Source of the DNA: Spirochaetota bacterium
GTDB lineage: Bacteria > Spirochaetota > UBA4802 > UBA5368
Direction: 5' to 3'
Assembly: GCA_035477215.1 (NCBI GenBank)
Contig: DATIKU010000002.1
Span: 1 to 64,000 of the forward strand
Length of the DNA stretch: 64,000 nucleotides
Positions 56,724 through 58,964 of this stretch are shown here, in pieces (position 1 is the stretch's first letter; every line of letters starts with the position of its first letter). The position numbers and the translations under genes were made by a program. Under the pieces are notes generated by a model, which searched no databases, was not told the DNA's origin, and was given only the letters and a program-made list of their open reading frames with translations.

Positions 56724-57233
56724 TCAGGCCGAGAGGCAGCGCACTATCGCGCCGACATACATGCGGTGGTAGTCTTTCTGCGGGTAGAGTTTCGAAATTC
56801 CCTCGGCGAGGAAGTTCCGCGGCAGGATGTCCTGGAAGTATATCTTCTCGCACTCCAGTACCAGGCGCGCCTCGGCGAAATACACCGCGCCGCTTTCGGT
56901 CGACGCGGGGGTTATTCCCGCCTCCTTCGCCTTGTCGACGTCCTTCCCCGAGTGCGAGCCGCAGTAGTTCAGCGCCGTGCGGTACTTCTCGCCGAAGAAC
57001 GAAAGCGTGAAGCGAGCGGCGTCCTCCATGAATTTGTAGGTGTGGCGCGTGGGGCGTACGAAACAGAAGCAGACGTTTTTGTTCCAGAGCACGCCCAGGC
57101 CCCCCCACGAGGCCGTCATGGTGTTGTAGCTTTCGGGCGTACCCGCGGTGATGAGCATCCAGTCGTCACCGATCAGTTTGAAGGGGTTGTCCCCGAGCGT
57201 GCGCGGATCGATTTCCCTGAGTGTGTGTGCCAT
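56724..57233 (-). CDS. flavin reductase-like FMN-binding protein
   Basis: The 169-aa protein matches the flavin reductase-like split-barrel family: an early WMLITAGTPESYNTMTASWGGLGVLWNK followed by FVRPTRHTYKFMEDAARFTLSFF. This arrangement binds FMN and often serves as the reductase of two-component flavin systems or an isolated flavoredoxin. The family includes flavoredoxins of anaerobes. GAGGAG precedes the ATG closely. It is divergent from the trpB2 leader, and the 57311-57351 inverted repeat lies in the shared promoter region. Confidence 0.9.
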   Translation of the reverse strand: MAHTLREIDPRTLGDNPFKLIGDDWMLITAGTPESYNTMTASWGGLGVLWNKNVCFCFVRPTRHTYKFMEDAARFTLSFFGEKYRTALNYCGSHSGKDVDKAKEAGITPASTESGAVYFAEARLVLECEKIYFQDILPRNFLAEGISKLYPQKDYHRMYVGAIVRCLSA

Positions 57234-57310: not shown

Positions 57311-57351
57311 AAGTTTTTTTCGAACGTACGCATCACGCCCGAAAAAAACTT
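57311..57351. repeat. 12-bp perfect inverted repeat, operator-like
   Basis: AAGTTTTTTTCG (57311-57322) and CGAAAAAAACTT (57340-57351) are exact inverted copies with a 17-base spacer. The right arm overlaps the -35 hexamer of the trpB2 leader promoter and lies about 80 bases from the divergent flavin reductase start. It could bind a dimeric regulator or fold in RNA. Confidence 0.6.
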
Positions 57352-57379
57352 GACAACGTTGCGTATATGCCCTTAGTGT
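57350..57379 (+). promoter_or_regulatory. possible promoter of the trpB2 leader
   Basis: A perfect TTGACA (57350-57355) is followed after 18 bases by TAGTGT (57374-57379), a weak -10. Transcription would begin about 20 bases before the first leader ATG, the right place for a short attenuator leader. Confidence 0.5.
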
Positions 57380-57407
57380 CTCCCATACACGGCGCGGCAT
57401 AGTCGCT

Positions 57408-57494
57408 ATGAAACAGAACGGCAAATTCAACATGAACTGGGCTTGGTGGTGGCGAACCGGACATCGATATCCGGGCGCTTTGGCGTGCCTGTAG
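57408..57494 (+). CDS. trpL: trp leader peptide
   Basis: This short reading frame encodes 28 residues from the ATG at 57408, or 20 from an in-frame ATG at 57432 (MNWAWWWRTGHRYPGALACL), ending at TAG 57492-57494. Four of five consecutive codons (57438-57452) are TGG, which is rare by chance and typical of Trp attenuator leaders. No strong Shine-Dalgarno precedes either ATG. It ends about 25 bases before an intrinsic terminator and about 105 bases before trpB. Ribosomes stalling at the Trp codons would alter folding of the downstream RNA, so that trpB is expressed when charged tRNA-Trp is scarce. Confidence 0.85.
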   Translation: MKQNGKFNMNWAWWWRTGHRYPGALACL

Positions 57495-57518
57495 CGAAAC
57501 AGACAACGGAAAGAGCAC

Positions 57519-57557
57519 AAGGGCTGCGGATATCAAAAGAACCGCAGCCCTTTTTTT
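57519..57557 (+). terminator. transcription attenuator terminator of trpB
   Basis: An 11-bp perfect stem (57519-57529 with 57542-57552) and a 12-base loop are followed by a run of seven T residues (57551-57557). It lies between the Trp-codon leader and the trpB start at 57600. The left arm can alternatively pair with 57489-57495 (seven pairs, two of them G-U), a possible antiterminator. Confidence 0.85.
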
Positions 57558-57599
57558 GTGCCCCGGGAAACTGAAACCATCATACAAAAGGAGGCGATA

Positions 57600-58964
57600 A
57601 TGCCACACGAATCTACGAAGATACTCTTACCCGAAAAGGAAATGCCGCGGCAGTGGTACAACATCATCCCGGACCTTCCCCGGCCGCTCAGTCCGCCCGT
57701 AAGCCCGGCGACCGGAAAGGCCATCACTCCCGACGAACTGAACGCCATCTTCCCGATGGGGCTCATCATGCAGGAGGTGAGCCAGGACAGCTACATCGAT
57801 ATTCCCGAGGAGATCCTCGACATATACCGGCTGTGGAGGCCGTCGCCGCTGGTGCGCGCGCGCAGGCTCGAGGAAGCCATCGGCACGCCGGCAAAAATCT
57901 ATTATAAAAACGAGGGCGTATCGCCCGCCGGCAGCCACAAACTCAATACCGCCGTGGCCCAGGCCTATTACAACAAGAAGGAAGGCATAAACAAGCTCTC
58001 AACCGAGACCGGCGCCGGGCAGTGGGGAAGCGCGCTCTCGCTGGCATGCAACTTCTTCGACATGAAGGTGCACGTGTACATGGTGCGCGTGAGCCACGAC
58101 CAGAAGCCCTACCGCAAGTTCATGATGGAGACCTGGGGCGGCACGGTGACGCCGAGCCCGAGCCCTCTTACGAACGTCGGCCGCGAGATACTGGCGAAGG
58201 ACCCCAAGAATCCCGGCAATCTCGGCATCGCCATCAGCGAGGCGGTGGAGGAGGCCGCCACCAACAAGGACACCAACTACGCGCTGGGAAGCGTGCTCAA
58301 CCACGTCTGCATGCACCAGACGATCATCGGCCTGGAGACGCGCAAGCAGCTCGAGCTGGCCGGCGACTATCCCGACGTGGTCATCGCCTGCGTGGGCGGC
58401 GGCTCGAATTTCTCGGGGATCGCGTTCCCGTTCGTGCGCGACAAGATCAACGGTAAAAACATTAAGATTCTCGCGGTCGAGCCGTCGGCATGTCCCACGC
58501 TCACCAAGGGGAGCTTTGTCTACGACTACGGCGACGAAGCCAAAATGGCGCCGATCGTCGAGATGTACACGCTGGGCCACACCTTCATGCCGCCCTCCAT
58601 CCACGCGGGCGGATTGCGCTACCACGGCATGTCGCCGCTGGTGAGCCTGCTCTACCACGAAAAAATCATCGACGCCGTTTCGGTGGCACAGAAGGGCTGT
58701 TTCGAGGCGGCGGTGCTCTTCTCGCGAACCGAGGGCATCATCCCCGCGCCGGAGTCCTCGCACGCCATACGCGCGGCGATCGACGAGGCCATGAAGGCGA
58801 AAGAGGAAGGAAAGCAGAAGACCATCGTCTTCAACCTGAGCGGCCACGGCCACTTCGACCTGGCCTCGTACGACATGTACTTCTCGGGCAAGCTCGACGA
58901 CTACGAGTACCCGGCCAAGCTCATCGAGGAGGCGCTCACCGATCTGCCGAAGGTGTCGCTGTAA
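57600..58964 (+). CDS. trpB: tryptophan synthase beta chain, TrpB2 type
   Basis: The 454-aa PLP enzyme makes tryptophan from indole and serine. The PLP lysine is K114 in [10 protein letters not shown]; the phosphate loop is [10 protein letters not shown] and the TGAGQWG segment is near residue 145. The N-terminal extension and total length (about 450 rather than 400 aa) place it with TrpB2, which often acts without TrpA. No trpA is adjacent. ATG at 57600 has AGGAGG five bases upstream. A Trp-codon leader and terminator precede it, which supports a real role in tryptophan supply rather than in serine deamination. Confidence 0.95.

Follow-up and report, generated by a model that had tools for sequence, protein, structure and literature searches.

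How is a trpB2 gene that stands alone at its locus adjusted to the supply of tryptophan? The question arises in a bacterium of the phylum Spirochaetota, where a tryptophan-rich reading frame and a T-tailed hairpin precede such a gene. The original prediction was of a classical tryptophan attenuator ahead of a lone TrpB2 in a likely spirochaete, and the phylum of the host agrees with it. Throughout, the window denotes the whole 64 kb stretch of DNA that was analyzed and G000 the genome it belongs to; f1 is the window's family, f2 to f20 are other families, and L numbers designate loci. We located trpB2 in 59 relatives and read the DNA upstream of it. A homologous leader precedes trpB2 in 13 genomes, and the elements in the window are as follows.

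57350–57355, + strand: −35 box of the leader promoter, TTGACA, invariant in 13 of 13 leaders and 87–110 nt 5' of the first TGG.
57372–57379, + strand: probable −10 region, CTTAGT / TAGTGT; position kept and TAxxGT-like in relatives, a weak match to TATAAT with poor consensus.
57408–57494, + strand: leader reading frame of 28 codons, MKQNGKFNMNWAWWWRTGHRYPGALACL, from ATG 57408 to stop TAG 57492–57494; Trp run conserved in relatives.
57438–57452, + strand: putative control codons TGG GCT TGG TGG TGG (WAWWW); two to four Trp codons in all 13 leaders.
57458–57461, + strand: segment 1, CGGA, partner of segment 2; CGGA/TCCG in f1 and f2, GGATA/TATCC in f6, one base out of register.
57466–57473, + strand: segment 2, GATATCCG, 5' side of the predicted antiterminator, extendable to about 57485; ATCCG invariant in 13 of 13, with 2:3 pairing and covariation.
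57519–57529, + strand: terminator 5' arm, AAGGGCTGCGG; three covarying pairs, 99% of cells paired.
57527–57534, + strand: segment 3, CGGATATC, 3' side of the predicted antiterminator, overlapping the terminator 5' arm and loop; CGGAT invariant in 13 of 13.
57542–57557, + strand: segment 4, the terminator 3' arm CCGCAGCCC(TT) with the T7 run; identified by sequence, covariation and a folding energy of −19.8 kcal/mol.
57588–57594, + strand: Shine-Dalgarno sequence of trpB2, AAGGAGG, 5 nt before ATG 57600.
57600–58964, + strand: trpB2, a TrpB-like PLP enzyme of 454 aa, by TIGR01415, NF009057 and structure matches.

The leader and the hairpin were as foreseen. TGG occupies four of five consecutive codons (57438, 57444, 57447 and 57450), and after the leader stop comes the expected 11-bp hairpin with seven T residues (57519–57557), in which AAGGGCTGCGG (57519–57529) pairs with CCGCAGCCCTT (57542–57552) and is followed by the T7 run (57551–57557). 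The strong Shine-Dalgarno sequence claimed for the gene is likewise present. The leader frame has two candidate starts, without a clear Shine-Dalgarno sequence, the second in-frame ATG (57432) giving a peptide of 20 aa rather than the 28 aa from 57408. An A/T-rich inverted repeat (AAGTTTTTTTCG ... CGAAAAAAACTT, 57311–57355) abuts the −35 box, and a similar repeat occupies the same place in L113, L013 and L034.

The product of the downstream gene scored 660.8 bits against TIGR01415, 140 bits above the cut-off of 518.85, and 746.9 bits against NF009057, and its closest solved structures (6hul_B, 4qys_B and 6hte_B) are deposited tryptophan synthase beta chains. The role of TrpB2 in the cell is debated between serine deaminase, indole rescue and tryptophan synthesis (PMC1854888). 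Tryptophan synthesis by TrpB2 (COG1350 / TIGR01415) has been described as dependent on O-phosphoserine (Busch 2014, cited in PMC11917138), and T. kodakarensis is reported to salvage indole (Hiyama 2014, cited in PMC11085991). Both works concern enzymology, and the window's trpB2 is a member of this family.

We then asked how readily such an arrangement could occur by chance. No other small reading frame on either strand of the window reaches four Trp within six codons, and the leader is alone, among frames that reach three, in preceding a terminator. A Trp-rich frame followed by a terminator was found in 19 of 122 real trpB2 upstream regions, a count that includes one genome represented twice, versus 0 of 732 dinucleotide shuffles of such regions; the automated terminator scan, with its loop limit of 8 nt, skipped the leader hairpin only for that limit. 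The leader matched no Rfam family, Trp_leader included, at the gathering threshold or at E<5, spurious miRNA matches aside. T-tailed hairpins are common between genes, and the hairpin might accordingly be an ordinary terminator of another transcript lying beside a chance Trp-rich frame. However, the flavin reductase gene upstream (56724–57233) is on the opposite strand and divergent, which leaves no upstream operon or transcript for the hairpin to terminate. Together with the empty shuffles, the joint conservation of Trp run, spacing, antiterminator and terminator over three families already contradicts this explanation, which we consider extremely unlikely.

That conservation covers all trpB2-bearing genomes of three families of the order (f1, 8/8; f2, 1/1; f6, 4/4), with a common order of TTGACA, Trp-rich leader, ATCCG segment, T-tailed hairpin containing CGGAT, and trpB2. 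In the alignment of the 13 leaders (A1), ATCCG and CGGAT are invariant and the T-tailed terminator is kept in every sequence. Alignment with relatives, which had been proposed as a check, thus revealed conserved Trp codons and covarying terminator and antiterminator stems. In a search of 46 genomes from the order and 393 from the phylum with model R1, 13 sequences scored E ≤ 3e-18, every one of them a trpB2 leader, and the next match was at 5e-6. Of the 26 weaker matches inspected (E 5e-6 to 0.01), most have no Trp leader and presumably represent simple terminators, and two (L149 and L153) are trpE attenuators. A second model, R2, was built from f1 alone to avoid circularity; in 432 kb of loci it recovered the leaders of f6 and f2, neither of which had gone into the model, with E values from 2.6e-8 to 2.9e-11, the latter for f2. 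Among its weak matches were the Trp leader of the trpE operon in G000 (L129) and those of several trpB2 genes from other phyla, as expected from their shared architecture. A transcription start downstream of 57500, named at the outset as an observation that would count against attenuation, is unlikely, because the −35 box is invariant and lies well upstream of the first TGG, so that transcription very probably starts 5' of the leader. Judged from these comparisons, the predicted attenuator at trpB2 is real and conserved.

The RNA pairings were examined in the same 13 leaders. In the terminator stem (3:4), 99% of cells are paired and three pairs have changed on both sides, for example from G-C to A-U, while in the antiterminator (2:3), formed by UAUCCG with CGGAUA, 100% of cells are paired versus 22–59% when the strands are slid, although the covariation test is limited by the small set of thirteen sequences and by their few independent substitutions. 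The outer 2:3 pair is U-A, C-G or G-U depending on the genome; it is located in the terminator loop, outside the stem, and is therefore not explained by the terminator. This antiterminator differs from that of the original prediction, which had placed the partner of the terminator's left arm at 57489–57495. That pairing is weak, with six pairs including two wobbles in the window, and is absent in f6; the invariant pairing of 57466–57473 with 57527–57534 takes its place. Because it shares the terminator 5' arm, the two folds are predicted to be mutually exclusive, and folding indeed found 2:3 and 3:4 as alternatives. To mimic a ribosome halted on the last Trp codon, the RNA was folded from the footprint edge, assumed to lie 15 nt from the first base of that codon, as far as segment 3. 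The 2:3 helix formed in 13 of 13 leaders, and the gap between footprint and segment 2 was 4 nt in 12 of 13.

Segment 1:2 is short, with 4 bp in f1 (CGGA/UCCG), 6 bp in f2 and, in f6, the shifted GGAUA/UAUCC, and it is absent from the minimum-energy structure of most leaders, including those of the window's genus. The translating ribosome must therefore do most of the protection of segment 2 when tryptophan is replete, and since the stop codon lies 3' of segment 2, a ribosome that does not stall would pass over it.

The leader peptide itself might be the conserved agent, acting in trans or arresting its own ribosome beyond the counting of Trp codons, as peptide action has been reported for the trp leader product peTrpL of Sinorhizobium (PMC7298713). 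The f1 leaders share the conserved motif WWWRxGHxYPGA, and W(W)WR..YPGA reappears in those of f6. However, these residues are encoded just where RNA segments 1 and 2 lie. Over these segments the encoded residues differ (RTGHRYPG, RQDNNYPG, RGGSHHPR), and f6 and f2 encode the same pairings by other residues (RQDNNYPGA and RGGSHHPRA, respectively). The one-base shift of GGAT in f6 changes both codon phase and residues, suggesting that selection acts on the RNA pairing, not on the peptide. Because the same pairings persist under different residues, the RNA explains the conservation, and we regard a peptide-based mechanism as unlikely.

Control could also be mainly translational, through coupling to the leader ribosome or reinitiation, which is possible at leader reading frames (PMC4833913), rather than through transcription termination. 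The hairpin nevertheless has the form of a perfect T7-tailed terminator (dG −19.8 kcal/mol by folding), a T-tailed terminator is present in all 13 leaders, and trpB2 starts about 105 nt past the leader stop with a strong Shine-Dalgarno sequence of its own, making this explanation very unlikely. Based on the conserved elements and pairings, we are highly confident in a ribosome-mediated transcription attenuator that senses charged tRNA-Trp through a leader peptide and controls a monocistronic trpB2.

From these elements we infer the following course of transcription, stalling and termination. Transcription would start near 57384. When tryptophan is short, the leading ribosome would stall on the TGG codons at 57438–57452, with its footprint ending a few bases 5' of segment 2 (57466–57473). 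Segment 2, left free, would pair with segment 3 (57527–57534) and remove the terminator 5' arm, allowing RNA polymerase to read into trpB2. When tryptophan is ample, the ribosome would reach the stop at 57492–57494, covering or disrupting segment 2 and its 3' extension; after ribosome release, segment 2 may fold back on segment 1. Segments 3 and 4 would then form the terminator, and transcription would stop at about 57557.

The description of TrpB2 as lone holds for the locus and not for the genome, which also carries one canonical and complete operon, trpEGDCFBA (L129). A second, different Trp attenuator lies upstream of its trpE, with the leader MKTRTNIARQCWWWTTKGLSSGTVMA followed by a strong terminator and with the candidate pairings GGACGACC/GGTTGTCC (1:2) and GGTTGTCC/GGGCAACC (2:3). 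Attenuators of trpE were also found in genomes of f1, f2, f3, f4 and f6. Many Trp leaders contain tandem T-tailed hairpins, namely L129 (G000:C52, from about 13,990 down to 13,800 on the minus strand), L172, L173, L174, L179, L182, L014, L052 and L073. In the trpE leader of L129 and in L014, L052 and L073, the first hairpin's 3' arm is complementary enough to the second's 5' arm for a predicted duplex of −12.8 to −19.7 kcal/mol. Such hairpins may allow a six-segment cascade (1:2, 3:4, 5:6 versus 2:3, 4:5), or may just reflect similar hairpin sequences.

A search for TrpR (PF01371) found none in the f1 or f2 genomes, G000 included, nor in the four trpB2-bearing f6 genomes. TrpR is present in 34 of the 59 relatives, and most genomes of f4, f5 and f7 have trpR immediately 5' of trpB2. 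Palindromes of the form TTTCTATnnATAGAAA occur near the trpR-trpB2 or trpB2 promoters of several TrpR-positive genomes and in 0 of 13 attenuator genomes; within 700 bp upstream of attenuator-type trpB2, no TTTCTN4-9AGAAA palindrome was found. The palindrome TGTTTCTATnnATAGAAACA, sometimes in tandem, precedes trpR-trpB2 or trpB2 in f4, f7, f14 and f20 (e.g., L121, L122, L127, L025, L031) and also trpE in L149, only in TrpR-positive genomes, and is a candidate TrpR operator. Judging by gene order and upstream sequence, most of the order would thus regulate trpB2 by tryptophan in one of two ways, and the gene very probably belongs to the tryptophan regulon. The proposal that TrpB2 serves tryptophan supply is strengthened by the presence of a trpEGDCFBA operon with its own attenuator, and we infer that this organism uses TrpB2 to make tryptophan (from indole).

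The TrpB2 tree unites the proteins of f1 and f6 in one supported clade (100/100) and places those linked to trpR (f4, f5 and f7) in another, which has the f2 protein, from G008, as its basal member (100/100). The f2 genome carries an f1-type leader despite the grouping of its TrpB2 with the trpR-linked clade; either the attenuator would be old and replaced by trpR on one branch, or leader and gene would have been re-paired. In G001, a 95% complete genome of the window's genus, no trpD was detected, and the only trpBA is on a contig with a 57% identical TrpB1, possibly from another organism. If G001 truly has no trp operon, its TrpB2 and attenuator would point to indole salvage.

A Trp-rich leader with a terminator, a candidate attenuator, also precedes trpB2 in metagenome-assembled genomes labelled as Deltaproteobacteria (L058, L059, L067), Caldithrix (L060) and Zixiibacteriota (L073), in one of a bacterium without classification (L052) and in one from a further family of spirochaetes (L014). 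Similar leaders are thus present before trpB2 in several other phyla. We see an even chance that attenuators of stand-alone trpB2 form a widespread, undescribed class in multiple phyla and that, within the order, attenuator and adjacent trpR-operator replaced one another on this gene. Such replacement, if true, would make TrpB2 a dedicated tryptophan-starvation enzyme working by an indole/O-phosphoserine route parallel to trpBA. A trpB2 that responds to charged tRNA-Trp in some families and to TrpR in sister families would be evidence, at the genome level, for the use of TrpB2 by many bacteria under tryptophan scarcity. With the present data, predicted attenuation of the classical Trp type extends to Spirochaetota, where it would act on trpE as well as trpB2 and is apparently the main control by tryptophan in lineages in which no TrpR was found. 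In the open-access literature, we found no report of attenuation of a lone trpB2 or in spirochaetes, though earlier trp reviews may mention it.

Among known systems, the trpL attenuator of E. coli has the same plan, with a Trp-codon leader peptide, exclusive 2:3 antiterminator and 3:4 terminator, and a promoter 5' of the leader. In contrast to E. coli, the window's attenuator precedes a lone trpB2 instead of trpE, its leader frame stops only once it has crossed segment 2, the 1:2 pairing is short, TrpR is not detectable in the organism, and no Rfam family matches even at a relaxed threshold. Trp attenuators have been predicted in the Actinobacteria Corynebacterium and Streptomyces (PMC1262725), likewise of the classical type outside Proteobacteria. 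The one in C. diphtheriae precedes an operon named trpB2A, a likeness in operon name, and its trpB sits with trpA, unlike the lone trpB2. In Chlamydia trachomatis trpRBA (PMC7755916), trpR lies directly 5' of trpB outside a full trp operon, resembling the trpR-trpB2 of sister families; there, however, trpA follows trpB, whereas the window's family has an attenuator and no detectable trpR. The mechanism is classical, and what is new is its target, a lone trpB2, the phylum and the alternation between TrpR and attenuator.
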